This document shows positions 6,949-27,840 of a stretch of 64,000 nt of DNA, in pieces. The translations under genes were made by a program, and so were the position numbers. This DNA comes from a candidate division FCPU426 bacterium (lineage in GTDB: Bacteria > Oederibacteriota > Muellerivitia > Muellerivitales > DAHXKG01), in the NCBI GenBank assembly GCA_027366525.1, contig DAHXKG010000003.1, forward strand, positions 184,702 to 248,701. Direction: 5' to 3'. The notes beneath the pieces are model-generated. The model ran no database searches and was not told the origin of the DNA. It saw nothing but the letters and a program-made list of their open reading frames with translations. The stretch's first letter is position 1; every line of letters starts with the position of its first letter.

Positions 6949-7034
6949 TGGCGGAGGGTGCAGGACTCGAACCTGCAAGGGGTTTCCCCCGGTGGATTTC
7001 AAGTCCACTGCCTTACCAGTTAGACTAACCCTCC
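6949..7034 (-). tRNA. tRNA-Ser (anticodon UGA), island attachment target
   Basis: Class II tRNA on the minus strand: acceptor GGAGGGT/ACCCTCC fully paired, anticodon loop GGACTTGAAATCC with TGA, variable arm GGGGGAAACCCC, T-arm GGTTCGAGTCC, discriminator G and encoded CCA. Its 5' half (6996-7029) is the left copy of the 34-bp direct repeat bounding the genomic island, so the 5' end of this working gene comes from the element. The broken integrase ends 7 nt upstream of the tRNA 5' end. Confidence 0.95.
6996..7029. repeat. Left attachment repeat of the island
   Basis: A 34-bp sequence covering the anticodon loop, D-arm and part of the 5' acceptor strand of tRNA-Ser(UGA). It is identical in sequence and orientation to 37937-37970. 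Direct repeats with one copy in a tRNA gene next to an integrase are the usual footprint of tyrosine-recombinase integration. Confidence 0.9.
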
Positions 7035-7041
7035 ATCTCCC

Positions 7042-7816
7042 TCAAACTCTTACAGCACCATCATTTTTTAAAACCATTCGCTGATTGAACACCACTGAAA
7101 CTTCTGGAGTCCTATAGGTGTCCTTCAACTCTTTAAACCGTCTCACTTTGGCCAACGCGTTCTGGCGGTCTTCCCGATCAATCCGGTCGTACTTCCAAAA
7201 GACCGCATAGGTCTTATGTCCGGAAATCGACATAATTGTCGTATCACTTAAACCGGACTTTCTAAAGTTCGTAATCGCATAGTTCCGTAAATCATGGAAA
7301 TGAAAGTTTGTAATATTAGCACGGACGCACGCTTTTAGAAAAGCCGTTCTTGGGTCTTTTATTCTCCGACCCCTGAAATTGAAAACATAGGGATTCCCCA
7401 AAACTTTGGGTATTCTCCTGAAAAGATTTGCAAAATTCTCATCCAGGGGAATTTCCCGTTCTTCCTGTGTTTTGGTGTCTGTGGATCTCGAGGTAGGAAC
7501 GCCTTCCCTTAAATCCACATTCTCCCATTTCAATCCCAGCACCTCACCCCGTCTCATTCCTGTGTCATAAGCCAACTGAACGACTGGCCGGATATGGGGA
7601 GAGCAATGGTCTAACAATCTTTAGGTATTCCTCAGAAGCCAGAGTTCGATTTCGGGAAGTCTCCCGAAACATTTTTAACCCTTCAACCAGATTCCGATAA
7701 ACCTGCCGGTTTAAAACTGCTCTGCGAGCGATCGAGAAAATATCTTTTTTCATCCTTCCGAAAATATCGTGGAAGCCATGGGCATAGGTTGACTCATGTT
7801 TTCTCCTAACGTTCAC
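7042..7816 (-). pseudogene. Tyrosine recombinase/integrase, frameshifted and truncated
   Basis: Two overlapping minus-strand frames form one integrase. The first (7816-7565) has the end of the core-binding region, reading RTLASEEYLKIVRPLLSP; the second (7617-7042) carries the catalytic domain: GMRRGEVLGL with the first Arg, HDLRNYAITN (HxxR), SGHKTYAVFWKYDRI with the second His and the likely Tyr. A frameshift near 7600 separates them. The normal N-terminal SAM-like domain is missing. The catalytic residues are still readable, so loss of function comes from the shift and truncation. It abuts the tRNA-Ser target and is the presumed integrase of the island. Confidence 0.85.
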
Positions 7817-9346: not shown

Positions 9347-10918
9347 TTATACTCTGGCTGATTTGATTTTATTAAGACGTACCTTATATCCAAGTCCCTC
9401 CAGCCGTTGATGTGCATTTTTAAGACTTACTTTACTGAAGAAAGGGAGGTCAAGCGGGTGATTCGAGTAGCTGATGATTCCGTAGACTACTTCGTAATCA
9501 TCTGTTCTAGGCCGGGATCTAGGATCTGCCAGTTTATAAGCCGAAGGTAGTTTGTCGTTTACTTTTACCCTAAACTCCGAGTCTCGTGCAAATAGTTCCC
9601 CGGAAACTATCCCCTGAAAAAAAAGATGACTAAGTGGAGCAGAATTACCATATCGCTTTATGTGTATAAGCTTTTTATCTAAAGTGAGAATATCGCAAAA
9701 TTCAATTTGTCCGTGAGTCCCACCATGATAAATTATGTCACGATCCATACAATGAGCCCCGAGTGTGGCCGCCGCAGCTACGTTATAACTCCTTTCATCC
9801 GCTTGTGTACAATTAGGAAGCGTAATACTTGAGGCTACAACCGTCTCATAATCACGTGTAATGTGATTTTTAAACGATTTGTCCACTTGGTACCACTTCC
9901 CATTGTTAAGAACAAATAATTCTTCAACGTGTTCGATTTCTGCGTACGTGCATTTATAAGCAGACCAATGTTCTGAAACGTTATTATTTGCAAGTGAAAA
10001 CATAAAAACGGAGTCTTTCTTTAATGTATCTACGTCCGTCAGTGGAGTTCCCATCTCGTCTAAATAAGAATCCATTCCGATATCGGGGTGGAGATCACCT
10101 CGTGTCTGACGACAATAACGGAAGCCTTCAAGGTCTTCCCAATTGATAACTTCTGGCACAGACATCCATATTTTTCTCAAATCCCGATTTTGAATCTTTT
10201 GAATAAGAATTTCATCGAGCTGACTAATGACAGCCGTATTCTTTATTTCCGCAATTTGGTCTATCCAACCAAAATTGATCTTGTAATCTGTACTCTTGTA
10301 ACGTTCATAACAATGCCTTAAAAAAGCAACTATATTTGTTATATCAACACGAGCAGAAGTTGTAAGAGCATCCTTTCCTGTAATAGTCTTACCAAGAATC
10401 GAATCATTAGTCTTCGCAGTAACAGAACTAATGAGGTCCTGTTCAATATCAATCCCAAATTCACTTGCAGTGACTTCTCGGCCCATTTGCTCACGTGTCT
10501 GTTTGGGGACAGAACCAAGGGTTGTTTTGTCGATGCTTCGAAGGCTTCCGGCATTTGCAGAGTTTAAAACAACTTTGAGCCCGAATCGTTCTTCGATGAC
10601 ATTATCTTTAAGCAAAAACTTTCCGCCCCCAAAGGTAATTGCGAAATACCGCGTCTGATTTTCACAAGTAATAGGAACTAGAAGAGTGCCACGAGCAATG
10701 GATGAAAAAAGAGGAATGTCATTTGGCAAAGCACCACCAAAAAACTTTTGAATCCAATCGGGTTTAAATTGATGCGATTCTGAAAAAATAAAAGTTCCAA
10801 CACCATCTATGGTGGCTCGTTTAGCCTCATCTTCTACAATATTTATAAGATCTGTCTGTTCCGACTTAAGCATATAAACCGAAATCTTGTTTGTTTTGAC
10901 CAGACTTGTTCTTGGCAT
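9347..10918 (-). CDS. DUF6119 (TIGR04141) sporadically distributed protein
   Basis: A 523-residue protein of the TIGR04141/DUF6119 family, whose members occur sporadically and often in defence islands; the biochemical role is not known to me. Family-like segments include the N-terminal KISVYMLKSEQTDL, the middle HIKRYGNSAPLSHLFFQG (a strongly conserved block), and VVYGIISYSNHPLDLPFFSK near the end. The start is uncertain: TTG 10927 has AGGA at better spacing, ATG 10918 is the conventional choice. A gap of about 225 nt separates it from the upstream DUF6527 gene, so it may or may not belong to the ubiquitin-like operon. Confidence 0.75.
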   Translation of the reverse strand: MPRTSLVKTNKISVYMLKSEQTDLINIVEDEAKRATIDGVGTFIFSESHQFKPDWIQKFFGGALPNDIPLFSSIARGTLLVPITCENQTRYFAITFGGGKFLLKDNVIEERFGLKVVLNSANAGSLRSIDKTTLGSVPKQTREQMGREVTASEFGIDIEQDLISSVTAKTNDSILGKTITGKDALTTSARVDITNIVAFLRHCYERYKSTDYKINFGWIDQIAEIKNTAVISQLDEILIQKIQNRDLRKIWMSVPEVINWEDLEGFRYCRQTRGDLHPDIGMDSYLDEMGTPLTDVDTLKKDSVFMFSLANNNVSEHWSAYKCTYAEIEHVEELFVLNNGKWYQVDKSFKNHITRDYETVVASSITLPNCTQADERSYNVAAAATLGAHCMDRDIIYHGGTHGQIEFCDILTLDKKLIHIKRYGNSAPLSHLFFQGIVSGELFARDSEFRVKVNDKLPSAYKLADPRSRPRTDDYEVVYGIISYSNHPLDLPFFSKVSLKNAHQRLEGLGYKVRLNKIKSARV

Positions 10919-11143
10919 AATAGCCAAAATACTCTTTTCCTAAAGAAACACAAGATTGAAAGATTAAGGGGTCAAGCTGGTTAAAACACCAACCCCTTCG
11001 ACTGGTTTGATTGCGGTTACAGACATGTTGTCGATTTATGGGCTTCTACAGAGTGCTTGGCCATTTGGGGTGGTGACAAGCATCTGGTCAATCATTGCCG
11101 TGAGAAGATGGTGTTCTAACCGGGAGATACCTGTCCGCTTTTA

Positions 11144-11668
11144 CTATTTTTTCTTAAAAATTCCACGATTTTTTCCAAAACCCTCAATTGCCTTCCCAGT
11201 GCGGACATGTCTTCTAAAAGAAAGTAAAACTTCCCAAGGCAATTCACTTATGTTTTCCGCAACATCAAAATAGTAAAGTGGTTTCCCTTCTTCCAGTCTC
11301 TCTAAGGTTTTTTTATCCAATTCAACATTATCGGGATTGTCTCCCCACAAATCCTCATAATCACACCAATATATTTTTTCATACCAAACAATAAAATGGC
11401 TGTAACAACCGGATTCTCTAATAACAGAAGGATATAATGTAATTTTTCCTCTTTTTTTGTAAAAACGCCAAGCGGGACCAACACGGGGATCTAAATTAAG
11501 TATTACTTCTTCTCCACAACCACTTGGGCAAAGCAAAATAAACAATCGCGGAATTTTTCTTACTACAAGAACTCCATCACCAGGCTTAATCAATAAAGGT
11601 TTTACGTCATCGCGCGATTCAACAACACCTTTAAATTGAATCTCATTCGCCCTTTGGCTTTCCACCAT
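11144..11668 (-). CDS. DUF6527 family protein of the ubiquitin-like operon
   Basis: The 174-residue protein matches DUF6527: LFILLCPSGCGEEVILNLDP with the CPSGCGE knuckle, PAWRFY, a TLYPSV strand, and a GCYSHFIVWYEKIYW segment with Cys and His that could complete a metal site. This family is known from bacterial operons with ubiquitin-like proteins, E2 and E1/JAB genes, but its role there is not established. It lies 15 nt after the kinase-like gene and is the last gene of that operon. AAGGA precedes the ATG. Confidence 0.75.
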   Translation of the reverse strand: MVESQRANEIQFKGVVESRDDVKPLLIKPGDGVLVVRKIPRLFILLCPSGCGEEVILNLDPRVGPAWRFYKKRGKITLYPSVIRESGCYSHFIVWYEKIYWCDYEDLWGDNPDNVELDKKTLERLEEGKPLYYFDVAENISELPWEVLLSFRRHVRTGKAIEGFGKNRGIFKKK

Positions 11669-11683
11669 TTCCGTGTCCTTAAT

Positions 11684-13147
11684 TCAAAGAGTAGCAAGAT
11701 GAATTATTATTTTTTCAGCAAGCAAATAAATAAAAGATTTTCGAAAATCATCTCTATCAGAACTAGCGACAGTTCCAGAAATACTTAATAATCTCATCGC
11801 TAAAGTAAAACTATACTCTTCTTTTGTAGAAGTTTGTGTGAACGCAATTTCTCTAACCTTCTTTATGCTTTGCCATAGTTTTTCTTCTGTGTCACCAAGA
11901 CCAAGCGTGGTCGGCATTTGAACCATTAAAAATTCCGGAGAATAAATTTTTAAAACAAACTTTTTCCAATCGGTTTTACTTAAGTTTTTACCACCAGGTA
12001 AATTTATTCGTTCAACAGAAATGCTTACTTCTAAAGCCGCACAATCTTCATTAATTGGACCCCAGTCAACCGACGCAAAATCTATAAGTACCGCTTCTTC
12101 GGAACGGACCATTATATTTTTCCCATGTAAATCCCTGTGAATAAGTGTATTTGTATAATTGAAATCTTTGACCTTTATTTGAATTAATGATTTCAGCTCT
12201 TTGGGCGTTATCATCGCCCCCAATTTAATAATTTTTTTAAACCTTTGTAATATTTTTTTTGAGCTAAAATTGCCAGGTTTTCCCTTTGTTTGCGTAGTCT
12301 GTCGTCGCCAACAATTTAAAGTTATATCAAATAAATGATTAATTTCCTTTTTTGCTCTTCCTTTTTGGGCCAAATCTAACAATAAATCAGCATCTATATA
12401 ATCGCCCACAATCAAACCCTTTTCAAAACCCGAAATACATCTTTTTAAGTCAAGATGGGGTCTCAGGTTAAATGGGATAAAATTATTTACATATTTTTCA
12501 TAATTCATTATTTCTTTTTTCTGATTTTCAACACTTTCAATTTTTAAAAAAAACGGTAATGGGATTAGTGGTTTTGGGGCCAAGCCAACTATTTGTCCAT
12601 TGACCTCAAATATTTTTGCTTCGGTTCTCCCACCAGAAAGGTTGCGAACTGTTATCAAACAAAAATCCGAAAAAGCTCTTTTTAATAAAAGTTTTTCATT
12701 TTTCGTTAACTTAATCTTGGAAGATGAGTCATTTATATTCAATTCGACATGTGGGGAGGACATTGGTTCGTGACGGGCAAATATTTCAGCAATTTTAGAA
12801 GGTTTTTCATCCCACAAGAGCGAAAAGTGTTGATGGTTTATAAGCGATGGAAATTTCTCATCTAAAATATCCCTTGTTAATTGGAAATAGAAGTTATTTG
12901 GAACGTGAGCAATAACAAATAATCCATAATCTAAAGCTATTGGTGAAAAGTTTTGTATTCCTTCTAAATATTGTTTTGGTTTATTGCCATGATTAAAAAC
13001 TATTCCTCTGGCAGATGAAAGAGCATTTTTAATCCCATTCAAATTCACACGCTCAAAATCTAGATTTCTTTCTATAAATGGTTCGAGAGAAATATTTACA
13101 GCTGGACCTATCCAGAGTATTTTTTTGCGAATAAATCTTTCATTCAT
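11684..13147 (-). CDS. Kinase/phosphotransferase-fold protein in the ubiquitin-like operon
   Basis: A 487-residue two-part protein. Residues 1 to about 125 look like an alpha/beta domain (ILWIGPAVNISL, GLFVIAHVPN). The remainder resembles the protein-kinase/aminoglycoside-phosphotransferase fold: the catalytic loop LIHRDLHGKNIMV (HRD at about 337-339) and VLIDFASVDWGP, where IDF would supply the metal-binding Asp. I see no clear P-loop-like glycine motif. Start ATG 13147 overlaps the E1 stop by 8 nt; an upstream in-frame start at 13192 is less likely. Its place between E1 and DUF6527 suggests that phosphorylation is part of the system; this is inference. Substrate unknown. Confidence 0.65.
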   Translation of the reverse strand: MNERFIRKKILWIGPAVNISLEPFIERNLDFERVNLNGIKNALSSARGIVFNHGNKPKQYLEGIQNFSPIALDYGLFVIAHVPNNFYFQLTRDILDEKFPSLINHQHFSLLWDEKPSKIAEIFARHEPMSSPHVELNINDSSSKIKLTKNEKLLLKRAFSDFCLITVRNLSGGRTEAKIFEVNGQIVGLAPKPLIPLPFFLKIESVENQKKEIMNYEKYVNNFIPFNLRPHLDLKRCISGFEKGLIVGDYIDADLLLDLAQKGRAKKEINHLFDITLNCWRRQTTQTKGKPGNFSSKKILQRFKKIIKLGAMITPKELKSLIQIKVKDFNYTNTLIHRDLHGKNIMVRSEEAVLIDFASVDWGPINEDCAALEVSISVERINLPGGKNLSKTDWKKFVLKIYSPEFLMVQMPTTLGLGDTEEKLWQSIKKVREIAFTQTSTKEEYSFTLAMRLLSISGTVASSDRDDFRKSFIYLLAEKIIIHLATL

Positions 13148-14474
13148 TTTGTCTTGCGGGCAAAGGCCATTCATCGCCCCGACCAAACGCACCCCTTGGA
13201 GAACAAACTATACAAACTGGGTCGATAGGTGCAGAAGCCGGGCGTAGTTTCCCGGTGATTCCATCATAAGTTTGAAACCTAGCCTTGAAAGGTACACCTG
13301 TAACGAATCCCAAAAACATTGTTATTGCAAAAGAAACCATTGTTGAATTTAGGGAAATTACACTCGGAGCAGGAATGTTATCTCCAATAAAATAAGGATC
13401 TTTTTGTCGCTGAAAAGAAGTCATTAAATCATACCTGATGGCATCCGGGTCTAATGTTCCTGAACAGGTCAAACAACCTAGGCCCGGTGAAAGCATTTGA
13501 GTTCGGCCAGTAATATGAGTCACTTGATGGTTTTGTGCTGTTATGCTCACACCAATATCAATACACGGGATAAAATATTGATAACTTAATTGGTTTAAAA
13601 TTGCTCTACTTCCATGACTATCGGTACAACAAAAAATAAAATCCACATCCTTTAAAAGCAGTGCAACCTTAGCATCCAAAATACTCCCTTTAACTTTTTT
13701 AATCTCTGCCTCATTATTTACAAATTTAATTAGTCGGTTTGCGATATCCACTTTCGGACGATTTAAATCTTTTTTATTTGCCCCCACTACTCGGTTTAGG
13801 TTCGAAACTTCAATTACATCTGGATCGATTAATAAATAATTTTTTACTCCTAAATAAGCCAATTGCTGTATTACTAATGAACCAGTTCCCCCAAGTCCAA
13901 CAATACCTAACTTCAAATCTCTTAAAAAATGTTGCCCCAGGGGTCCAAAGGCACGAATTTGTCTGTCAAATTGTTTTATTTGGCCAAACTTAGTCTCTTC
14001 ATTTGAATGGGACCAAATGTTTGGTCCAACCTCCATCACTCGGATTTTTTTAAACGTTCCTAAAAACCGGGCTGTACAACCATTAGGTCCCACAACTAAA
14101 GCAATATGAGGACCCAAAACATTTCTTTTTTCTAAAAAAACGCATAATGTTTTCTCCCCTTTGTCATCAATAGGTGAAAAACGAGGATTATTTATACTCC
14201 CGGGATGAGTGTGGACAAAAACCAAACCTTTATTATTGAGTTTTGCTTTTTTTACTATTGGAGCTAAAAATTCTGGTTTTAATTGACAATCGACGCCAGT
14301 TTTTTTGAGATAAGCTTCATCCGTCGGTAAATGAATATCATTGACTAGAATTCTAAATCCACTTTTTGTTTTAACAGGGGTAGTTACCAAAATTGCAGCC
14401 GATTCAGTTGAATGACTAAGCAATAAAGTTTTTAATCCAGAAAATACTTGTCCCGGAAATATTAAGTCGTTCAT
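13140..14474 (-). CDS. JAB protease-E1 (ThiF) fusion of a ubiquitin-like system
   Basis: A 444-residue fusion of a deubiquitinase-like and an activating domain. Residues 1-150 form a JAB/JAMM metalloprotease with FVHTHPGS (H88, H90) and the later S100-P-I-D103, the zinc-binding pattern. Residues 170-440 form a ThiF/E1 adenylyltransferase: Q-F-D-R-Q-I-R, nucleotide loop GLGGTG (193-198), LLIDPDVIEVSNLNR, and CxxC knuckles (CLTC, CIVC). Expected roles are trimming the C-terminus of the ubiquitin-like protein or removing it from targets, and activating it by adenylation. The start overlaps the E2 stop by 4 nt (ATGA), indicating coupled translation. Confidence 0.9.
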   Translation of the reverse strand: MNDLIFPGQVFSGLKTLLLSHSTESAAILVTTPVKTKSGFRILVNDIHLPTDEAYLKKTGVDCQLKPEFLAPIVKKAKLNNKGLVFVHTHPGSINNPRFSPIDDKGEKTLCVFLEKRNVLGPHIALVVGPNGCTARFLGTFKKIRVMEVGPNIWSHSNEETKFGQIKQFDRQIRAFGPLGQHFLRDLKLGIVGLGGTGSLVIQQLAYLGVKNYLLIDPDVIEVSNLNRVVGANKKDLNRPKVDIANRLIKFVNNEAEIKKVKGSILDAKVALLLKDVDFIFCCTDSHGSRAILNQLSYQYFIPCIDIGVSITAQNHQVTHITGRTQMLSPGLGCLTCSGTLDPDAIRYDLMTSFQRQKDPYFIGDNIPAPSVISLNSTMVSFAITMFLGFVTGVPFKARFQTYDGITGKLRPASAPIDPVCIVCSPRGAFGRGDEWPLPARQNE

Positions 14475-14854
14475 TGGCTGTCTTTAAGTCTTGTTTGTAT
14501 AACATGAAAAAAGGTTGAAAGATTATCTTGGCTTGGATTCCATTGACCTAAATGCCATGAAAACCAAAGATGCGGAGGTAAATCTAGAGCTTCTGGTATC
14601 GCTTGGAGCTGGGCATTTTTTGGAATACCTCCATTTTTTAGCCTTAAGGTTGGTTCCGCCCAAAAACAATCTGGTTTTGCATATGGAAATCCTACTGGAG
14701 CGATAAATTTAATATCGATTTTATCACGGGACCAGCCAGGAGAGAGTTTTACAGAAGGTACTGTAATTAAATAAGCACCACTGGGAAACTTTCTTTGAAA
14801 AACTTCTGGGCATTCGGATTTTAAAATTGCAAACTGCTCTTCAAAAGGTGTCAT
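14471..14854 (-). CDS. Prokaryotic E2-like (Prok-E2_E type) protein
   Basis: The 127-residue protein matches the bacterial E2_E type of ubiquitin-conjugating fold: a GAYLITVPSVKLSPGWSR strand pair, then FIAPVGFPYAKPDCFW, and the ending WFSWHLGQWNPSQDNLSTF. The only cysteines are C14 and the one in PDCFW; which of them, if any, carries the thioester is uncertain. It is overlapped by 4 nt with both neighbours (ubiquitin-like gene upstream, JAB-E1 downstream). The expected role is transfer of the activated ubiquitin-like protein to a target. Confidence 0.8.
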   Translation of the reverse strand: MTPFEEQFAILKSECPEVFQRKFPSGAYLITVPSVKLSPGWSRDKIDIKFIAPVGFPYAKPDCFWAEPTLRLKNGGIPKNAQLQAIPEALDLPPHLWFSWHLGQWNPSQDNLSTFFHVIQTRLKDSQ

Positions 14855-15147
14855 TTTAAACCAAAAGTTGCCGGTGGAACTGTATAGAAATGACGAATTC
14901 CCTTGTCCTGGTCATTATCATGATCTGCATCACTTCCTGGTTTTAAGTCTACCGTTTGAGTATCTGCTATCTGCTTATCTTCGGAATCTTTATCCCGATC
15001 TTCTAAGAAAAGTTGATACGTATTGTTTGGGCTTGGTAATTTTGATTTTATTTGCGCGCCAGTTAAACTTCGATCTTGGGATTCATATTTTTTCCCATCA
15101 ACATAATAAACATATTTTTCTTTTTTCTCGGATGTATCCGCACTCAT
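14851..15147 (-). CDS. Ubiquitin-like (multiubiquitin-type) modifier
   Basis: A 98-residue single-domain protein of the multiubiquitin type, with KYVYYVDGKKYESQDRSLTG (beta-grasp start), AQIKSKL, NNTYQLFLEDRD and the characteristic tail HFYTVPPATFGLK. It ends Phe-Gly-Leu-Lys, so two residues would have to be removed to expose the glycine if conjugation works as for ubiquitin; the JAB domain next door is a candidate for this. AGGGGA precedes the ATG. It is first in the operon, 4 nt overlapped with the E2 gene. Confidence 0.8.
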   Translation of the reverse strand: MSADTSEKKEKYVYYVDGKKYESQDRSLTGAQIKSKLPSPNNTYQLFLEDRDKDSEDKQIADTQTVDLKPGSDADHDNDQDKGIRHFYTVPPATFGLK

Positions 15148-15463: not shown

Positions 15464-18400
15464 TCATTCCTTTTCAAAACCCTGGTCTTTAAACTTCAAA
15501 GTTCTACTGTTTTCTGTAACAATTCGGATTACGTTATCCGGCGTTCCATTTGGGATTTCAGCTTCAATTTCAAGCGTCACCTTCAATTTGGAGCCCATTA
15601 ACCCTGCCAAATGGGCAATGACTTCATCTGCCACGCGACTAGCATCCCGTCCCACTCTAGTAGGATCAAGTTTGACTGTTCCATGAAAACGCTTAGGAGA
15701 TGCTAATACATTGGTTCTTGATTTTCCTTCTGGTTTTTCTGACGAATCCGTAGTTAAAGATGGAGAGGCTGTGGAAGATCCTGCTTGAGAAGCCACAGCC
15801 TGTCTTGTCGCAAGTTGTTGGTTGGCGACTTCTGATTTCACCAGAAGCCCTGTATTATCTTCTGGTATTCCAATTCGCTCCCCACACCGCAATCCCTTGA
15901 ATTGTCCGGTAGCCTCGTCTTTGCTTTCGGCATAGGCAAAAGATTCCTGTGCCCAAGTCAAAAGGGTCAACCCACTTGTGATGGCTTCCCGTAAAACCGC
16001 GTTGTTGGTCAAGCGGGGGAGGTAAAGATATCGAGCAAAATCTTCTATAAGTTGTCGAATAGACACGGAATCACCGCGCCAAAGAGGAACATTATCCAAA
16101 TCTAATCGAAGTCTGGTACCAGCTAAGGCCGTCACCAACAGTTCTTCGTTCTTTAACTTCTTACTAGCCCTAGCCGCTAAAGGATCAGTGCCTGTCAGAC
16201 GGATAGCGTTCCATGTGATGGGTTTTTCTGCGTCTATCTGAACCGGCACCAAGAGCCATTGGTAGGCTTCCGGCAAACGGCTCTTGACCACACTATCAGT
16301 TGAATTTCTTTGATTCTCTGCCTGTTTAACTTGATGCGGGTCGAGATTCAAAGCCTCGCTGTCATCAAGTATGGATTCCCATGCCAAATAACGACTGATA
16401 GCTTCTACCAAATCCTGCAAACGGGCTTGATCTACCGCTAAAAAAACCAATGTATTACGGAACAAACGGGGGGTGTTACCCCGATTTTCCAAGATAGCTT
16501 TAGCTTGAGCTTCGGCTTTATTATTTGGGTCTTTGCTATAGGGGTAATCAGAACCCAACACCACCAGCCGTGCATCCATGTCGTCGGGGACATCTTGGCC
16601 GGATTGGGGAGCGGAATGAACTCTTGGAAAATCACCTTTAGTCTTGAGATCAGTTTGTAAACGTTTTTCCAATTCATGTGCCAAGGCATCTAGGTCACGC
16701 CTTTTCTGTTCAGCTCGGTCTTCTGCGATTTTGGTGACGGTAGGTTGGGTGGAATACCAGTAACGAGTTCCATCCTGATAAAGATAAGTTGCGGCGGAAG
16801 ATAAACGCCTCAAAGCATCCCCAAACACAGCAGGAGTTTCTCCAGGCATGACACAACCTAATTTAACCTGACGGTCTTCCAAACCCCGGTTGGCCGCTGC
16901 GGCAGTCGGGGCAGAACCTAAATAAATAGTCCTCGCGACCCTGCGGCAAGCAGCGTATTTTCCCAGGTTTGGCACTTCGCCATCAATACGGCGTGGGAGA
17001 GCATCTGGCCCATCCACATCTTTATCCAAGACCGGAACCCAGTTATCGGAAAGATACCGTGTCAACTCGAACTGAACTTGGGGGTCATCAATGGGGATAT
17101 TCGAGGGAAGAATCAAAGGGTTTTTGTCGTTGTTCTTCCAAAGGCTGTGGATGACGGCGGCCATCAGGCGCAAAACACCGCGAGTCCTTTGGAACTTCAC
17201 CAAAGTGGACCAGTCGATATAAAGTCGATCAAACACCTCTGGATGAATTGGATAAGCTGCCCTCAAGCGTTTTTCGTAATCGGCGTTTCTACATTCAAGC
17301 GGAAATTCTTGGTGTTGGGTTCGATAAAAATCATAAAAACCCTGGGCAACAGTGTCTCTGGCTATAAATTGATTTTTATCGAGGATCGGTTCAAACAAGC
17401 GGCGGCGAACAATCTCAAACCCTTCCTCAGCTCCAGCAGGCCGCCACGATGCCTCCACCCGGCCCACAGCATTCCGCAACCGGGCCAAAGCCACCCGGCC
17501 TCGTTCACCACCGACTTCCACGTCATCGGCCACCGCATGGGGTGAACCGGTTGTATCCGAGGCAGGTAAGCTGATAACTAGAAGGCATTGTTTGGCCAAT
17601 TTAGCCGATTCCGTAAGAGTCTGGGCAAAGGTGAAATGGGTCTCAAAACTTCCTCCCGGAAGATCCGCTTGATCGTGAAGCTGCCTGGCATAGGCTACCC
17701 ATTCGTCTACGAGAATAAGACAAGGGCCATATTCATTGAATAATTCACGCAATGCGTCACCAGGACTCGTAGCCTTTTCATCATCCGCTTGGATACGAGC
17801 AAAAGCTTTCTTGCCCCCTAGTTGCCAAGCTAGTTCGCCCCAAAGGGTTCGTACTACGGTGCCATCTGATTTAACAGAAGGGTTTCCAGGTGAAATTCGA
17901 TTTCCCACCAAAACTACTCGTTTAGCGCTAACAGGTTTATCGGCACCCGCTTGTTTCAATATTTCATCCATGCCGGGAAGTTCCGTGGGTTTGATCCCGG
18001 AAAAAAGATGATAGAGGGCCAGCATCGAATGGGTTTTGCCGCCGCCGAAGTTCGTTTGAAGTTGAATGACTGGATCTCCACCTTTTCCCGTCAGGCGTTG
18101 AAGAGCTCCTCTCAAAAGATGTTTGAGACTCTCGGTCAGGTAAGTCCGTCGGTAAAACTCAATGGGGTTTTTATATTCCTCGCTACCTTCCCCTAAGTGA
18201 ACCTGCCAGAGATCAGCAGCAAACTCGGCCTGCTGGTAATGACCATTAGCCACATCCTTGTGAGGGGTCACCACCTCGCGCCAAGGAGGAAGTTGGTGGG
18301 TGGCTGTACTTTCTATGACCGTTCCAACCGTTTTTCGTTTCTCCTGACGGACTTGCTCATCAAAACGAACCCGGAGAAGCTCCATTTTCATCTTTTCAAT

Positions 18401-18793
18401 ATCTTCTACTTGAGGAGCAGAAACTGCGGCCAATAAGCGTCCCACGGAATCAAACACCCGATAAGCCTCATCCGTGGAAAAGGGTTGTTGATGAGCCCAG
18501 TTATTCTGGTGGTCTATTAGCTCACTGACTAAAGACCTCTCAGCCCTTCCCAAGGTTTTTGCAAAAACTTCGGTCCATTGATTCCACATCACAACTAGAA
18601 GGTTAGTGACATCCCAATTGGGCTTATTCTCTGTGCCAAACAGGTTGGTTTGAGTAGAACCAACCGATTTCTTGGCGATCTCAAACCATTGTTGGGCGTG
18701 CTGGGTACGCATCTCCCGTTCGACAAACGGTTGAAGACCTTCGCGGAGAAGTTCCAATGCTTTACCGACTCGTTCGTGGTTTGTTGATGCCAT
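15464..18793 (-). CDS. Swt1-type HEPN / DUF499 ATPase
   Basis: A 1109-residue AAA-type ATPase of the DUF499 family found in antiphage clusters. The N-terminus (ERVGKALELLREGLQPFVER) resembles the Swt1 HEPN-like domain. Walker A is NFGGGKTHS (about 249-256), Walker B LILVDEW (about 360-366), and a DNA-directed or phage-sensing motor role is usually assumed. The tail (residues 990-1109) ends in a short beta-rich domain after a Ser/Thr linker. It starts 3 nt after the methylase stop and is the last gene of the operon. I do not see the R-x4-6-H RNase motif in the HEPN part. Confidence 0.85.
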   Translation of the reverse strand: MASTNHERVGKALELLREGLQPFVEREMRTQHAQQWFEIAKKSVGSTQTNLFGTENKPNWDVTNLLVVMWNQWTEVFAKTLGRAERSLVSELIDHQNNWAHQQPFSTDEAYRVFDSVGRLLAAVSAPQVEDIEKMKMELLRVRFDEQVRQEKRKTVGTVIESTATHQLPPWREVVTPHKDVANGHYQQAEFAADLWQVHLGEGSEEYKNPIEFYRRTYLTESLKHLLRGALQRLTGKGGDPVIQLQTNFGGGKTHSMLALYHLFSGIKPTELPGMDEILKQAGADKPVSAKRVVLVGNRISPGNPSVKSDGTVVRTLWGELAWQLGGKKAFARIQADDEKATSPGDALRELFNEYGPCLILVDEWVAYARQLHDQADLPGGSFETHFTFAQTLTESAKLAKQCLLVISLPASDTTGSPHAVADDVEVGGERGRVALARLRNAVGRVEASWRPAGAEEGFEIVRRRLFEPILDKNQFIARDTVAQGFYDFYRTQHQEFPLECRNADYEKRLRAAYPIHPEVFDRLYIDWSTLVKFQRTRGVLRLMAAVIHSLWKNNDKNPLILPSNIPIDDPQVQFELTRYLSDNWVPVLDKDVDGPDALPRRIDGEVPNLGKYAACRRVARTIYLGSAPTAAAANRGLEDRQVKLGCVMPGETPAVFGDALRRLSSAATYLYQDGTRYWYSTQPTVTKIAEDRAEQKRRDLDALAHELEKRLQTDLKTKGDFPRVHSAPQSGQDVPDDMDARLVVLGSDYPYSKDPNNKAEAQAKAILENRGNTPRLFRNTLVFLAVDQARLQDLVEAISRYLAWESILDDSEALNLDPHQVKQAENQRNSTDSVVKSRLPEAYQWLLVPVQIDAEKPITWNAIRLTGTDPLAARASKKLKNEELLVTALAGTRLRLDLDNVPLWRGDSVSIRQLIEDFARYLYLPRLTNNAVLREAITSGLTLLTWAQESFAYAESKDEATGQFKGLRCGERIGIPEDNTGLLVKSEVANQQLATRQAVASQAGSSTASPSLTTDSSEKPEGKSRTNVLASPKRFHGTVKLDPTRVGRDASRVADEVIAHLAGLMGSKLKVTLEIEAEIPNGTPDNVIRIVTENSRTLKFKDQGFEKE

Positions 18794-18796
18794 TGT

Positions 18797-21691
18797 TTAG
18801 GATTCCTTACTTTCAAATAGACCGGTTTGTTCATGTGGCACTTTACCGACTTCACGGGCCAAACGGGTAATTTCTGGCCAGCTTTGGACCAAAGCATTAT
18901 AGCTTAAAGCTTCTTGAGATCGTTTCTTGCGCTCACAGATGGAGTAAAGTCTATAAGCCAATTCACGAGCTGTTTCGGCTTTACTCCCGAGTTTGCTAAC
19001 CAGCACTGCCGCCGCCGATTCCCCTTTTGCCAAAACACGTACCAAGTGATGCACTGTTTCCCATGCCGTCAAACGGTCATCCTTAGCGAGATCCCAGTTA
19101 TCCGACAGTTCTTCAGGCTTTAGCAAACGCACCTTCCCACGTTTGGATTCCAGGATTCCGGTCTCTTCTAAGCCATGAACACTTGTGTTTTTGGCTTTGC
19201 TAAGAGTTTCCGCTACCCCATATTCTCCGGCAGCAAAACCTTGTTGTTCAAACCAAGCCAAAGCCCAACGGCTATAGGCATCAAAATCGCCTCCCTGTTC
19301 GGCCAACGTCTCATCCATCACTTGGTTAATCAAAGCCAAGGCTTCTCGAACGGGTACCGCTTTACCTTCCGTATCAATCACTTTTGAAAAACGTGTAAAT
19401 ATCGCCATTCCAGGGCCTATGGAAGCCTGAGCCAAATCCACTGGAGCAATATTGCTCTGTTGTAGTTTTTGAAGGGCTGACGGCAATTCGGACTTCAATT
19501 CTGCCAAAAAATCACGACGTGTTACGGTAGGTGCATCATGATTATTTTTTCTGCAGACCAAAACAACACTCGTTGCTAAAGCCGCAATATTCTTTTTTAG
19601 ATTTCCAGTATATTCAGTTTTTATAGGCCATGTTCCGCTAACAGAAAATCCAGCTGAAATTACCGCATCAAGAAAAGTCTCCCAACCAGTGCTTGCAGTC
19701 CCACCTTCACTTTTATTTTCGGATTGTTTAAAAGCATAGTAAATGGTTACAGGAAATAATAAATGACTCCTTTCCGAAAGACACCGCATTGCATTCGTCA
19801 TCCCATTTAAGAAAAATTTTTCAGCCGCATCTTTATTACCATGTCTATATGGTGTCGCAACTAATTCTTCAGCCTTCGGAACAGCAAGAGTTCCAAAAAG
19901 TTCAGGGAAAATGTTTTTCAAAGATCTACGCAACCAAACATAAAAAAAGTCCGAAAGATCTGCATAGCCAATATTGTCATAGTACGGGGGATCAGTAGAT
20001 ATCAGTTTATTTAAGCTGATTGTCTGTGTTGCTGCGTCAATTTGGTTTGCAAAACTTTTGGGTTTAGCTGGAGCCGTTAAAATTTGTTTGGCAGCTTGGT
20101 CAATGCCTGCTAAATAATTTCCAGAAGATTCGCTAAAAGGATTTGCTTCTGCAAAATCCCAAACCATCGGGAGGGCTTGCCGACCAAAAGTGCTTGTAAT
20201 AGTATCTCGACCACCGTGCCAAGAACATATGGAAGACCAGTAATTAGCCCCTTTATCAATTGCAAAACTCAAATAAACTCCTACCGCATCCGCATAAGCC
20301 GTTGCACCAAGACCACCGTCGGCCAGTGGTTTGGAATCATCGGGCATGCCTGCAGAAATAGCGTCTTTCTTAACTTCTTCACGGGCTTCTTGGATTAAAT
20401 CAGAAAAAGTCGTTAAGGCCACAAGTTGGCGAGAAGTAAATATTTCATGCCAGAATTTAATTCCATAACCACGACCACTCACTAGATTTGGTGTATTCTG
20501 ATTCATTTCTTCTTCTGGTTTCCATTTCGGTTTAGCTTGCCATACTATTGTTTCGTGTCTGGAAGTTGGGCAAAGATATATTCTCCCATTTTTTCCCTCT
20601 GCAACTATTGCCATGAGTTTGGAGCCAATTCGACCTTTCTTCCCTTCTTCTTTTATATAAGAACTTTCTATAGGAACTCCTGACATTAAGCATTTGAAGT
20701 TAGCACCCTGGGCAAGTTTTGTACCGTTTCGGATTTCAGCAATATTTTTAGGTTTACCAACCTTCACATTGAAGTGATACACGCCGTTTTGAATTGCCGG
20801 TTCCACATAGGCTTCCTTGCCAGGTTTGGTCGAGAGCATAAAGGTTGAAGCGAGTGGTACTTCCACTTTTGCAAAAGCAGGATTGGGGCTTTTCACTGTA
20901 CGGGCCCAAAGCCAAGCAATGACCGTTAGCTTTTGACCTAAATAGGGTTTGAGATCAGGCCGTTCTTTCACCATTTCTTTTGTGATTTCAATCTTTGGAT
21001 AGAGATATCCAATTTTCTTTTCCGCCTCATCTCGCATCCATTGACCGTAATAACGAACATCTTCAGCTAACCCTTGAGTTCCTTTCCATGAGCGTTCAAT
21101 TAAATCTTTACCCTTATTAGCCTCGAAGTTAACAGGTGACTTGTCGGCAAACTTGGGTGGTATTTCAATCATGGCCTTGTTAATTAAAACAGCTACGGGG
21201 TTCAAGTCACTGGCATAAGATTCCAAACCCAATCGTTGAGCCTCTAAGGGTAACGCCCCACCCCCAGCAAAGGGATCATGGAAAGCTGGAAGCTTGTCTC
21301 TGTTGAATAACTCTTTTGCTTGCGGATGGTCTGCGTTGTCCGCACAAGTACGCCGCCAGCTATTCCAAATTTCAGTCCTGGCCCTATTTAGAACTTCTTC
21401 GTTGGTTGTGTTTTCCCATTGCACGAGTTCTTCGATGATCTTGAAAAGTCTCTTCCGTTCTTTTTCTTGCGCTTTTTCAGTTGGAAAAAGGTCAGGCCAC
21501 TCCGAAGGATCATCTACCATCTGAGCAAAAATAACCGCCCGTGCCGCCGCCAAAGGCCGTCTCGCCCACCACAAATGAAGCGTGCTCGGATGGCCATGCC
21601 GAATGGATTTTTCTCTTGCGGAAGCCTTATTGATAGTTTCCAAGGGAAGCGCCACTTCAATAAGTTTTTTTCTATTTTTACTTGGATTCAT
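18797..21691 (-). CDS. DUF1156 adenine/cytosine-N4 DNA methylase
   Basis: A 964-residue DNA methyltransferase of the DUF1156 group. The N-terminus has the typical LIEVALPLETINKASAREKS and HLWWARRPLAAARAVIF. The SAM-binding motif is in FHDPFAGGGALPLEAQRLG; the catalytic motif is TDPPYYDNIGYADLS (about 565-579), a DPPY form used by N6-adenine or N4-cytosine methylases. In a defence operon it probably marks self DNA so that the helicase/ATPase/nuclease genes attack unmodified DNA. The ATG overlaps the stop of the preceding 135-residue gene by 4 nt. Confidence 0.9.
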   Translation of the reverse strand: MNPSKNRKKLIEVALPLETINKASAREKSIRHGHPSTLHLWWARRPLAAARAVIFAQMVDDPSEWPDLFPTEKAQEKERKRLFKIIEELVQWENTTNEEVLNRARTEIWNSWRRTCADNADHPQAKELFNRDKLPAFHDPFAGGGALPLEAQRLGLESYASDLNPVAVLINKAMIEIPPKFADKSPVNFEANKGKDLIERSWKGTQGLAEDVRYYGQWMRDEAEKKIGYLYPKIEITKEMVKERPDLKPYLGQKLTVIAWLWARTVKSPNPAFAKVEVPLASTFMLSTKPGKEAYVEPAIQNGVYHFNVKVGKPKNIAEIRNGTKLAQGANFKCLMSGVPIESSYIKEEGKKGRIGSKLMAIVAEGKNGRIYLCPTSRHETIVWQAKPKWKPEEEMNQNTPNLVSGRGYGIKFWHEIFTSRQLVALTTFSDLIQEAREEVKKDAISAGMPDDSKPLADGGLGATAYADAVGVYLSFAIDKGANYWSSICSWHGGRDTITSTFGRQALPMVWDFAEANPFSESSGNYLAGIDQAAKQILTAPAKPKSFANQIDAATQTISLNKLISTDPPYYDNIGYADLSDFFYVWLRRSLKNIFPELFGTLAVPKAEELVATPYRHGNKDAAEKFFLNGMTNAMRCLSERSHLLFPVTIYYAFKQSENKSEGGTASTGWETFLDAVISAGFSVSGTWPIKTEYTGNLKKNIAALATSVVLVCRKNNHDAPTVTRRDFLAELKSELPSALQKLQQSNIAPVDLAQASIGPGMAIFTRFSKVIDTEGKAVPVREALALINQVMDETLAEQGGDFDAYSRWALAWFEQQGFAAGEYGVAETLSKAKNTSVHGLEETGILESKRGKVRLLKPEELSDNWDLAKDDRLTAWETVHHLVRVLAKGESAAAVLVSKLGSKAETARELAYRLYSICERKKRSQEALSYNALVQSWPEITRLAREVGKVPHEQTGLFESKES

Positions 21692-22831: not shown

Positions 22832-24286
22832 TTACTTGAGCACCTTCCAATACCCGCCCTTGTCCGGTCCGACACGACGTAAAAAATATTTTTTTCTCAG
22901 CTTAGCGATGTTTTGCTCCACCTTTCGATGTGAAATACCCACTTGCTCCGCGACCTCTCTTGCGGGAGCATCTGGTTTTTGCTGAAGGTATGCCATAATC
23001 CGTTCTTGGTTTTTCGTTAATCGATCTCCGACCTTTTTCTACGACCCTTTCTCCGACCCCACCGAGCTCTGAGTCTCGCTAAACCCCTGAACTATTTTAG
23101 CCATAAAGGTAACGATAAGAGACCCCTGCCTCTCCTGGAAAATCGGTGGCTTGGCCCCATGTTTTTGGCACATAGCGATGACCCGATTGGTTCCACGTCC
23201 CCAAACTTCGACAGCCCCCGTACGATGGAATGCCTCGGCGATCAATGGATTGGGCGGTTTGGAATCGTGTTTGCCTGAAAGCTGTTCCAAAGTGATGCCG
23301 GTTGGCAAACGCCCATCGCTGTGAATTTCAATCCGATCATCGAATACCGCAATAGAAACGTAACCGGAATAATAAGAATAATCCCGATGCATGACCGCAT
23401 TGAGGAGAATTTCCCGTAACGCATCCAAGGGCACCGGAAATCGGTCTTCCCGGAATATTTCTCCTTCCGGAAACCTTGCACCCAAAGGCATGGTTCGTTT
23501 CAGGAACTCCATCCCTTCCCGGACCATAGAAAAGGCGTTCATGTGCTCTTGTCGGTTATCCACGATTTCGTCGGTAACTTCGATTCCCCGAAAGCGTCCC
23601 ATCTTGAGGAGACATTGGGGATAGTCTGGAAGGAGTTTCTTGCCGTAAAGAACTTGGGCGGCCTGGGTCAGGATGCCATCTTTTCGCAATCCCAGACGAT
23701 CCAGGATTTCTCCAATATCCCGGCTGGTCTCGGGTGAAATACGGTTCTGCTGGATGGCCAAATCCCGCGTTCGCAGTATTTCCCGGCGATCTAAGTCCTT
23801 CAGGGCTAATCCTTCAGCGGGAAAGTTTTCCCAACGGCGCTTGGAATGGCCGCGTTCAACCAAAAGTTTTTCGTATTTGACTTGGGGCATCCGCTTGGTG
23901 GAACTTCCCACCCTCTCGTAGGCACGACCCTCATAGCTGACAGGTTTGAGATCCTGTCCATCCTCGACTTGGGCCACAATAACCTCGTGGCCCGTCTTGA
24001 GTTTGACACGATGGAGGGAAACATGGGCCGGAGGCTCAAAACGATCCGTGGCCTGGGCAATCTCCTGCAAGGTGCGATCCGAGGCCGTTTGACCATCGAT
24101 AGTGCCGTCTTCTCGAACATCGAAAAGAACCACACCACCTGATCCGTTCAGAAAAGCACAAAGCGTTTGCATTCCTTCCTTCAATTCACTGGTCGAGCGT
24201 TTGAACTCAAGTGTCGAGCCTTCACCCATACGAACAAGAGACTGGAGTCGATGGATAGTAAAAGTCTCTCCCGGAATTTTCTTCAT
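22832..24286 (-). pseudogene. AlbA_2/HATPase/winged-helix regulator interrupted by an in-frame TAG
   Basis: A COG2865-type regulator. Order: AlbA_2 (Schlafen-like) DNA-binding domain with GEGSTLEFKRS, GHKL-type ATP-binding part with LREILLNAVMHRDYS and FHRTGAVEVWGRGTNRV, then a winged helix, REVAEQVGISHRKVEQNI, ending KGGYWKVLK. A TAG codon at about 23039-23041 interrupts the frame in the linker before the winged helix; the same frame continues to a TAA at 22832. The first 415 residues may still be made as a protein without its winged helix. The ATG overlaps the helicase stop by 4 nt. A damaged relative is at 8156-8714. Confidence 0.8.
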
Positions 24287-27200
24287 GAGGGTTCCTCCGC
24301 CTTCTCCAAAAGCTCAGAAAAGTTATAATTGACGCTGGTCACTCCAAAATCAGGCTCACGTTTGAATGGGTTGCGGATGTAATGCACTTTGTGGTTATCA
24401 TCCATGAATTCCACGATGGCGAGGATAAAATCTTCCGGTTTATTCATTGAATAGAGAATTTCATTTCGGGTAACCGTTACTGTATCCGCTCCAGTGATTC
24501 GCCCCTTCACCTCAATAAATCGCAACTTTCCGGTTCCTGGTATTCGGCTCTCAATATCATATCCCAATTTTTCAGTTTCCCTATCTTTGGGATCAAACCC
24601 GAGCTTCCGCTCAATTTCCATAATGATTTCACGGGCTTTAGCGGCTGAGGCTTGGGTATCGGTAGTTGTGGTGGTGGCCTGAGTATTGGACATCTTGGCA
24701 ATGAGGCCGGCAGGAATCACCAGAAGTCCACCTAATACAACGGGTGGCAAAGGTGATAACTGGGTTTCCAGCTTAAGATCTTCCAACCTTTTTTGAAGAC
24801 GGGCTTGCAAGTTGTCAGCACGCTTGCGTGCTTCATTGGAATTTAATCTTGCATTTGCCTTTCCGGCTTGCTCCTGAAGCTTTAAATCTTCCGCCCGATG
24901 ATCCCAGTAATTAATTTCTTTAGTCAATCGTTCTTTTACGGCTGCTTCCGTTTTCTGGATTAAAGCAATCTTCTGTGATCGTATTTCTTCAAAATGGTCT
25001 GGGACAATCTTGCTAATAGCATAGGTTTGGGCTTTTGGTTCAAGTTCTTTAGTAATCCATGTACATTCGGGCCGATTTAGAAAAACTTCTATTTTGGGTT
25101 CTTCTGATTTTAATGGGCGATAATCAAGATAGGGGGCATAATTCAGATGACGGGCATTACCGGCAGCATCAATTTCCACATAAAGCATTTTTTTTGAAAC
25201 TACCCTTCGGTCTCCGGATCGAGTGATGCTTGCATCTTGAATGGCATGTTCCAAATAGAAAAGAATCCTGGGCTGGTCATTTGAATCCAAGTCATCAACT
25301 AAAACTGCGCCCCGTTTTAAAAGATCACGATGTCTTTCAATAATCAGATCAAGGGTTGAATCCAATAATGGATGCCCTGGGCATATAAAAGCTGCTGGGA
25401 TTTGACCCTGAGGAGCAATTAGACACTTTTCAAATGTAATTCGTTCATAACGCGGAACTACTGCTTCACCAATACCTAAAAGCCTATCCCGATTGCGAAC
25501 AGGAGCCGGAACAAAGGATAATTCATAGCGACGTGGTTCTTTCTGCTTGGAATTGCCTCCTAATTGCTGAAAGGCTTCCAAAAAGAACGATTCAATGTAA
25601 TGGGGTTGGAGACGGCGAGCTTCTGCTCGTTCCATTTGTTCACGGATTTTATAAACCCGGCTTACATCCATCACGTCCTGGGCCAAAGCTTGTTCTTCGA
25701 TTAGGGTTTGAAGCTCTTCTTTGTTGAAAGCATTGGCTACCACCTTATTTAAATAAGCTTTTACTTCGGGATTTTCACCATAACGAATGGCTTCAATTAA
25801 CAATTCCCGCAGGGGCTTACCATCAAATACTAATTTCCCCAGCACATCAAAGACCTGACCACCTAAGGCATTTCGCGCTTCTTCTAACTTGCTCAATAGA
25901 GTCAGATAAACTTCACCTTCCCTAGTGCCATCTGCCACCAAGTTCCATAAGTGACAGACTTCGGTTTGACCGATACGGTGAATACGACCAAAACGTTGTT
26001 CAATACGGTTAGGATTCCAAGGCAGATCGTAATTCACCATCAGGTGGGCACGTTGAAGGTTGATACCTTCCCCGGCGGCATCAGTGGCCAGCAACACCTG
26101 AACTAGAGGATCATGGCGGAAAGCTTCCTGGGATTTAGTTCTCTCTTCTCGACCCATTCCACCATGAATAAGGACTACCGCTTCTTGGCGTCCTAAAAGG
26201 CTGGTTGTCTTTTGGTGTAAGTAATTCAAGGTGTCACGGTGTTCGGTGAAAATAATCAATTTTTGATGTGGCGAAGGCTTTGGGGGTGGAATAGATCCAG
26301 AACCGTACGGATCTGGGGAGTCACTCATTTTAGAAGCAAAGATTTCGTGCAAAAGTTGGGATAGTTCAATCCACTTTTTATCTTCACCACTTCTTTTGAC
26401 TGTGAGTGATAAATTTTCCAGACGGGTAAGAGTTTCAATTTCGACCTTGAGTTCAAATATTGAATGGGCAGCTGTCGCTTGATCAACAATCTCGGATTCT
26501 TTTTCTTCTATTTCATCTGATGGCGCGTCATCAATATCCTCAAGGTCTTCATCATCAAGGACCGGGGTGTCTTTATTGATATCTGTGGGAGGGACTGAAC
26601 CCCGTTGAATAAGTTCCAGTTCCCGCAACTTACTTTCAAGACGTTCTCTCCTTCGTTTTAAAGATTGATAAATAGCTTCGGGTGATGACGCAAGCCGCCT
26701 TTGGAGGATGGTTAGTGCAAAACCTACAGTGCCGGAACGTTTATCATTTTGGAGTTTTTCCACCCGGTTAAATTCTTCTCGGACGTAGTTTGTTACTTCA
26801 GCATAGAGACGAGCCTCAATATCCGAGAGTTTATAGGAAATGGTACGGGCTATTCTTTGAGGAAACAGGGGTTTGGCGTCAAATTTAAGAAGATTTTCTT
26901 TCACCATCCGGCGCATAAGATCTGATACATCAGATGTGTGCACACCATCCCTGAACTTTCCTTCAAACCGATCACCGTCTAGTAAGGCCATAAAAAGCTG
27001 GAAGTCTTCCTCTTTGCCGTTATGTGGCGTAGCGGTCATAAGAAGAAAGTGTCGGGTAATTCTTGATAGTTCTTGTCCCAGACGATAACGTTTGGTGTAT
27101 TTAACTTCACCGCCAAAAAAAGTTGCGGACATCTTGTGAGCCTCGTCACAAATAATTAAATCCCATCTGGCTTCAGGTACTAATAGTTTGGCTTGGACTT

Positions 27201-27840
27201 CCTCGTCCCGGCTGAGTTTATCCAATCGGGCAATAACTAGATTGTTTTCAAGAAACCAATTTCCCGTTCGGGATGATTCCAATTTGTCATTGGTTAAGAT
27301 GTCAAAGGGAAGATGAAATCTGCGAAATAATTCATCCTGCCAGTTTTCGGCAAGACTTCCTGGGCATACAACCAAACACCGTTGAAGATCGCCACGGGCA
27401 ATCAATTCTTTAATAAATAAACCCGCCATGATGGTTTTACCGGCTCCAGGGTCGTCAGCCAGAAGAAACCGCAAGGGTTGTCTTGGGAGCATCTTTTCAT
27501 AAACGGCGGTTATCTGATGTGGAAGTGGTTCAACTTCGGAAGTGTGTACGGCTAGAACAGGGTCGAATAAATGGGCTAAACGGATACGATGGGCTTCGGA
27601 AACTAAACGGAAAAGCCCACCATCACCATCAAAACTCCAGGGGCGTCCCTTCTCTGCTATTTCAATGCGGGATTCATCCTGCCGATAGACGAGTTGGTTC
27701 CCAATTTTTCCTGAAGGGTCTTTATAAGTAAGCTCAACTGCATCAGTGCCATACCACTGGATGTTAACTACGGTAATAAGACAATTGGGCAATATGCCAC
27801 TAACGGATGTGTTTGGTAGTAAATCTTCTAATTTTGCCAT
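24283..27840 (-). CDS. SNF2-type helicase with C-terminal DUF3883
   Basis: A 1185-residue superfamily 2 helicase. Motif I is DDPGAGKTIMAGL (about 129-141), motif II IICDEAHKMSA, motif III LLMTATPHNG, and motifs V-VI LLATDAAGEGINLQ and QRFGRIHRIGQ. After a long coiled-coil region, the C-terminus has LRFIEVKGR...TVTVTRNEI, the DUF3883 (PD-(D/E)XK-related) pattern. It is similar in layout to helicases of DISARM-like and other restriction-type systems, where it would translocate on foreign DNA. It is at or near the head of the operon with the methylase and DUF499 ATPase; the nuclease-like gene upstream ends 15 nt before. Confidence 0.9.
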   Translation of the reverse strand: MAKLEDLLPNTSVSGILPNCLITVVNIQWYGTDAVELTYKDPSGKIGNQLVYRQDESRIEIAEKGRPWSFDGDGGLFRLVSEAHRIRLAHLFDPVLAVHTSEVEPLPHQITAVYEKMLPRQPLRFLLADDPGAGKTIMAGLFIKELIARGDLQRCLVVCPGSLAENWQDELFRRFHLPFDILTNDKLESSRTGNWFLENNLVIARLDKLSRDEEVQAKLLVPEARWDLIICDEAHKMSATFFGGEVKYTKRYRLGQELSRITRHFLLMTATPHNGKEEDFQLFMALLDGDRFEGKFRDGVHTSDVSDLMRRMVKENLLKFDAKPLFPQRIARTISYKLSDIEARLYAEVTNYVREEFNRVEKLQNDKRSGTVGFALTILQRRLASSPEAIYQSLKRRRERLESKLRELELIQRGSVPPTDINKDTPVLDDEDLEDIDDAPSDEIEEKESEIVDQATAAHSIFELKVEIETLTRLENLSLTVKRSGEDKKWIELSQLLHEIFASKMSDSPDPYGSGSIPPPKPSPHQKLIIFTEHRDTLNYLHQKTTSLLGRQEAVVLIHGGMGREERTKSQEAFRHDPLVQVLLATDAAGEGINLQRAHLMVNYDLPWNPNRIEQRFGRIHRIGQTEVCHLWNLVADGTREGEVYLTLLSKLEEARNALGGQVFDVLGKLVFDGKPLRELLIEAIRYGENPEVKAYLNKVVANAFNKEELQTLIEEQALAQDVMDVSRVYKIREQMERAEARRLQPHYIESFFLEAFQQLGGNSKQKEPRRYELSFVPAPVRNRDRLLGIGEAVVPRYERITFEKCLIAPQGQIPAAFICPGHPLLDSTLDLIIERHRDLLKRGAVLVDDLDSNDQPRILFYLEHAIQDASITRSGDRRVVSKKMLYVEIDAAGNARHLNYAPYLDYRPLKSEEPKIEVFLNRPECTWITKELEPKAQTYAISKIVPDHFEEIRSQKIALIQKTEAAVKERLTKEINYWDHRAEDLKLQEQAGKANARLNSNEARKRADNLQARLQKRLEDLKLETQLSPLPPVVLGGLLVIPAGLIAKMSNTQATTTTTDTQASAAKAREIIMEIERKLGFDPKDRETEKLGYDIESRIPGTGKLRFIEVKGRITGADTVTVTRNEILYSMNKPEDFILAIVEFMDDNHKVHYIRNPFKREPDFGVTSVNYNFSELLEKAEEPS

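Follow-up and report, generated by a model that had tools for sequence, protein, structure and literature searches.

Ubiquitin-like conjugation of the E1/E2/JAB type occurs in bacterial defense islands, as in CBASS Cap2/Cap3 and Bil, and crosstalk between kinases and ubiquitin is regarded as a eukaryotic hallmark. The papers defining another bacterial system, Bub, are reportedly Gong 2025 and Ye 2026. Bub corresponds to class 6e of Iyer, Burroughs and Aravind (2006), in which a polyubiquitin-like protein (PolyUbl), an inactive E2-like protein, a JAB-E1 fusion, and a metal-binding protein are encoded together; no kinase is named there. A link between phosphorylation and Bub is already known in another form, since CapK, a kinase of the unrelated GHKL type whose gene precedes Bub operons, phosphorylates a winged-helix repressor and controls transcription (PMC13373217, available portion). 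According to the same portion of that article, protection against phage by Bub operons has not been shown so far.

Here we describe a kinase-bearing subtype of the Bub operon. It lies on the minus strand at positions 11144-15147 of the window, the 64,000-nucleotide stretch that was analyzed, and its genes follow the order Ubl (ubiquitin-like protein), E2_E, JAB-E1, kinase, and DUF6527. The Ubl (14851..15147, 98 aa) is a single Multi_ubiq domain (PF14452; 34.2 bits, cutoff 24.5), and the E2-like protein (14471..14854, 127 aa) matches Prok-E2_E (PF14462; 35.9 bits, cutoff 25). These are followed by a BubCD-type JAB-E1 fusion (13140..14474, 444 aa; ThiF 129.8 bits, cutoff 28.1), a two-domain kinase (11684..13147, 487 aa; APH 26.7, cutoff 23.2), and a DUF6527 protein (11144..11668, 174 aa; PF20137, 60.2 bits, cutoff 23.6). 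The kinase also matches TCAD9 (PF19974), for which its score is marginal (43.1 against a cutoff of 40 over the whole protein; 30.2 for the best stretch in the genome search). Successive genes overlap by 4 nt (Ubl/E2), 4 nt (E2/JAB-E1), and 8 nt (JAB-E1/kinase), and a gap of 15 nt separates the kinase gene from DUF6527. The kinase ATG, at 13147, lies upstream of the JAB-E1 stop codon, and the 8 shared nucleotides are ATGAATGA. Upstream of the Ubl start is a purine-rich stretch containing AGGGG. Five packed genes with these identities had been proposed in a preliminary description of the DNA, and the coordinates, the Pfam matches, and an intact JAMM motif bear this out, as they do the 8-nt overlap, which has exactly the same length in seven other operons. 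A chance assembly is not a plausible source of this gene set, given the series of curated-family matches and the identical order at about 20 other loci.

The operon has the Multi_ubiq Ubl, the Cys-less E2-like protein, the JAB domain fused to E1, the 3' DUF6527 gene, and the gene order of Bub/class 6e, in agreement with the earlier remark that this combination is known in bacteria. It differs from Bub in having an APH-fold kinase between JAB-E1 and DUF6527, a winged-helix tail on DUF6527, JAB-E1 proteins that form their own clade, and a Ubl that is often single-domain and ends in VP[PK]A[TN]FG. Compared with CBASS Cap2/Cap3 and Bil, the operon has a JAB-E1 fusion, DUF6527, and a kinase, no cyclase gene, and an E2 with an invariant Ser but no Cys at the usual place. 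Like CapK and CapS, which control Bub and CBASS operons, it ties a kinase and a winged-helix protein to Bub; however, the CapK gene lies upstream and specifies a kinase of the GHKL type (PMC13373217, available portion), whereas the window kinase has an APH fold and is encoded within the operon. We rejected an identification with CapK, as there was no match to GHKL, STAS, or HTH domains. In the literature on Bub that was examined, partly in excerpt and with Gong 2025 and Ye 2026 aside, no such operon kinase is described, and an earlier notice is possible. Each part is known, and the fixed combination is apparently new within that literature.

The kinase gene across genomes

The preliminary description regarded the kinase-like gene as an unusual insertion and asked whether it occurs with such operons elsewhere. 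In a neighborhood survey, its close homologs lay in the operon at every intact locus found. In genome contigs, a search model built from operon-borne kinases, and thus favoring such members, recovered 19 relatives, 17 of them strong, and all 17 strong homologs lay in the five-gene order with the kinase in the same slot. At these JAB-E1/kinase junctions the genes overlap by 1 to 14 nt or are separated by 2 to 8 nt; one of the kinases (L017) is frameshifted. The result agrees with a search of 72,556 plasmids in which the window protein was the only query. This gave 12 records, comprising only loci of this five-gene type and one decayed remnant. Every intact plasmid locus inspected had the order Ubl, E2, JAB-E1, kinase, DUF6527, including L005 and L006, where the E2 is present though unannotated; in L003, JAB-E1 is divided between frames. 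A Deinococcus plasmid contributed one more five-gene locus. The other records come from Bradyrhizobium plasmids; their scores equal that of L004, and JAB-E1 adjoins the kinase in them. What stands of the earlier claim is therefore the APH-fold gene inside a Bub/6e operon. The gene is a fixed member of a subtype rather than an inserted oddity, and synteny rejects an insertion unique to the window genome.

Carriers include alpha-, beta-, and gammaproteobacteria, Acidobacteriota, Deinococcus, and the window genome, and the kinase-bearing operon is rare. Among 45 genomes of the window phylum, the kinase was found only in the window genome. For two other carriers, random samples drawn from their class or phylum yielded no second kinase; a JAB-E1 search of a class sample turned up diverged proteins but no second close relative. 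Neither the kinase nor JAB-E1 had relatives in viral contigs, nor did JAB-E1 in phages, and a viral origin was rejected on these grounds. The two weak relatives (L025 and L026) lie outside Ubl operons. In both, TCAD9/APH follows a receiver domain at the N terminus, which Pfam recognizes in L026 and sequence motifs indicate in L025.

In a tree of 40 JAB-E1 proteins, all 21 from kinase-bearing operons fell in one clade (support 94/96), and kinase presence required 2 label changes, compared with 13.6 in shuffles. Pairwise distances of the five proteins were strongly correlated, most of all for the kinase and JAB-E1 (r = 0.964, equaled in 0 of 1,000 permutations). The kinase evolves faster than its neighbors, with a mean identity of 34% against 45-47% for the other genes. 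The simplest reading is that the kinase was gained once and that the whole cassette then spread. The same clade includes one truncated Roseomonas plasmid copy (L045) that lacks the kinase; its 5' end is cut beside an IS21 element, and DUF6527 directly follows JAB-E1. An Ochrobactrum plasmid remnant (L061) is similar, with JAB-E1 and DUF6527 pieces and no kinase. Because these decayed copies keep JAB-E1 and DUF6527 pieces without it, the kinase may be dispensable in some settings.

Conjugation proteins, kinase, and DUF6527

The window Ubl ends in VPPATFG-LK. Relatives have endings of the VP[PK]A[TN]FG type in which the Gly is followed by 0 to 4 residues, so that trimming by JAB would be required in some operons and not in others. 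We compared Ubls from kinase-bearing and kinase-less operons for conserved Ser/Thr residues specific to the former, and none stood out clearly. The Thr of an LTG motif was considered as a phosphosite candidate and rejected. That position is Ser or Thr throughout and is often Thr in kinase-less Ubls as well, which means that it is not specific to kinase-bearing operons.

The E2 lacks Cys at the usual catalytic position, and WFSWH stands where the Cys motif would be. Within this motif, Ser99 is invariant across the kinase-bearing E2s compared; most kinase-less Bub E2s have WSRH instead. A Ser-linked E2 intermediate would agree with the biochemistry of Bub. The JAB-E1 protein comprises an N-terminal JAMM isopeptidase and a C-terminal ThiF/E1 adenylation domain, and it matches the E1-E2 models of PADLOC. 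Its Prok-JAB score is under the cutoff (15.0 against 25), and the JAMM motif (H-x-H...S-x-x-D, at residue 88) is intact, as are the GLGGTG loop and the CxxC pairs at 334 and 421. The best PDB match is Citrobacter BubCD (9ea4, 5.4e-32), which spans both domains. A Citrobacter koseri protein in our set (L058) is without the CxxC pairs.

The kinase consists of a receiver-like alpha/beta N terminus (residues about 1-125) and an APH/TCAD9-family kinase (about 140-487), with APH and choline kinase matches beginning at residue about 144. Its AF2 model (pLDDT 86.7, pTM 0.84) has an APH fold (Foldseek, 2.8e-8; VIA Z 16.8, 3.7 Å over 259 residues). This model, together with TCAD9 and APH profile scores above cutoff, upholds the kinase/phosphotransferase fold that had been predicted. 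All 16 kinases scanned matched both Pfam families (TCAD9 at E < 0.01), and the Lys, Glu, HxDxxxxN, and Asp set (K202, E212, H337, D339, N344, and D356) was invariant in 16/16, which suggests that catalysis is under selection. The N-terminal region alternates beta and alpha elements like a receiver, with no Pfam match and no Asp after beta3, and comparing its profile with the L026 receiver produced no signal. Relative to L025 and L026, with which it shares both Pfam profiles and the presence of an N-terminal domain, the window kinase thus lacks a detectable receiver signature and acceptor Asp. It also differs from the TCAD9 family in residing in a Ubl operon instead of a vWA-MoxR system; no vWA-MoxR-VMAP domains were seen among the window neighbors scanned.

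DUF6527 is modeled (AF2 pLDDT 90.8) as a beta-rich core bearing Cys and His residues, followed by a C-terminal winged helix (about 112-174). Winged-helix matches in Foldseek reached a TM(target) of 0.84, with E values of only 0.015 or worse. The tail is found in the kinase clade and is absent from the kinase-less Bub operons compared. The association has exceptions in both directions, as the Deinococcus operon has the kinase and a DUF6527 without the tail, and L045 keeps the tail and is missing the kinase. As DUF6527 is encoded last in the operon, we infer that it is the metal-binding protein Y of class 6e (Iyer 2006). A literature text search returned no mention of DUF6527.

Possible roles of the kinase

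A kinase gene that belongs to the operon itself, and keeps its slot even between remote bacterial lineages, points to cooperation between tagging and phosphorylation in this Bub subtype. Our leading reading, to which we assign a probability of roughly 0.4, is that the operon, carried on a defense island, is a module for responding to stress or phage and that the kinase gates tagging by protein phosphorylation. The JAB domain would trim the short tail past the C-terminal Gly of the Ubl and later strip the Ubl from targets. The E1 domain would adenylate the Ubl, and the E2, which has an invariant Ser close to where the Cys usually stands, would hand it to targets, with DUF6527 and its winged helix perhaps steering the transfer. 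The kinase, which would be translationally coupled to JAB-E1 by the gene overlap, would phosphorylate a pathway protein or a target, and its receiver-like domain, without a phospho-acceptor, probably senses or docks. Gating by protein phosphorylation is favored because the kinase has been co-inherited with the E1 and has kept its catalytic residues. A narrower version is possible, if doubtful: in an immune or stress module of five fixed genes, conjugation would be licensed by a dedicated kinase that phosphorylates the modifier, its enzymes, or the target being tagged. In principle, such a kinase would correspond, in bacteria, to PINK1-ubiquitin or phospho-degron control. A compact five-gene operon present in several bacterial phyla would make kinase-Ubl coupling testable, and it would supply a working context for DUF6527 and TCAD9-type kinases.

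APH-fold enzymes frequently act on small molecules. The substrate here may likewise be a small molecule instead of a protein, and for this reason we only infer the connection between phosphorylation and modification that the preliminary description had envisaged. The kinase could instead be an effector acting on a nucleotide, metabolite, or drug, or a growth-stopping enzyme, that is switched by Ubl tagging. Its nearest folds are small-molecule kinases, namely, choline kinase, APH(2''), APH(4), LicA, and others, and low-molecular-weight substrates have been proposed for APH kinases of conflict systems (Burroughs 2020). We nevertheless consider this rather unlikely. The substrate does not follow from fold alone, and YihE, an APH-like protein kinase, is also matched, though weakly. 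Moreover, effectors would often be swapped between operons, whereas this kinase was co-inherited with JAB-E1.

The remaining alternatives are less probable than an effector. With its winged helix, DUF6527 could join the kinase in switching transcription of the operon, as an internal analog of CapK/CapS. The two traits share one clade, the genes are adjacent, and phosphorylation of a winged-helix repressor by CapK offers a precedent (PMC13373217, available portion). Several kinase-bearing operons, however, already have upstream WYL or HTH plus IrrE regulators, which weakens the case, and the pair comes last in the gene order. Since the Deinococcus kinase occurs without a winged helix and the L045 winged helix without a kinase, we view such a switch as improbable. 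We hold it still more improbable that the kinase is chiefly a structural partner (an adaptor or E3-like protein) or the protein that the Ubl pathway mainly modifies, with catalysis secondary; its faster evolution and extra receiver-like domain, which would suit docking, fit this idea, but the catalytic residues are invariant in every kinase compared. As for a chance neighbor or hitchhiker, for which only the rarity of the operon speaks, the survey refutes it. The gene occupies the same slot across phyla, often with a short overlap, and is co-inherited with JAB-E1.

Genomic surroundings

The kinase-bearing subtype is probably related to defense or stress. In the window, the operon lies inside a 31-kb tRNA-Ser island, just downstream of a complete HmaABC defense system (HmaC, 15464-18793; HmaB, 18797-21691; HmaA, 24283-27840). 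Between HmaB and HmaA are an AlbA_2/Schlafen protein (23039-24286) and two small unmatched genes. The island is delimited on the basis of an integrase at 7042-7617 and two identical 34-bp direct repeats. The first (6996-7029) lies inside tRNA-Ser(TGA) at 6949-7034; the second (37937-37970), at a distance of 31 kb, sits at the margin of a partial 5' half of tRNA-Ser. The tyrosine integrase spans 7042-7816 in two overlapping frames, with the catalytic domain in 7042-7617 and an apparent N-terminal part in 7565-7816. It looks frameshifted, so the island may be immobile. Adjoining the operon on the same strand is a DUF6119/TIGR04141 "sporadically distributed" protein (9347-10927), and elsewhere in the island a 1,213-residue protein (33182-36823) has no match in Pfam or PADLOC.

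No upstream regulator of the WYL or IrrE type was seen in the window. Among its relatives, WYL proteins precede the operon in L022 and L024 and HTH plus IrrE proteins in L019 and L005, resembling the controllers known for Bub and CBASS (PMC13373217, available portion). CBASS genes stand beside L004 and L006. Directly upstream in three further loci (L009, 1051-4494; L014, 1193-4504; L016, 1531-4917) is a fusion of an IrrE-like peptidase, a UvrD helicase, and a PD-(D/E)XK nuclease, which is possibly a sixth gene of the operon and a DNA-damage sensor. Finally, diverged JAB-E1 genes occur on two haloarchaeal plasmids (L049 and L059), and that of Natribaculum (L049) has vWA and MoxR genes close by.
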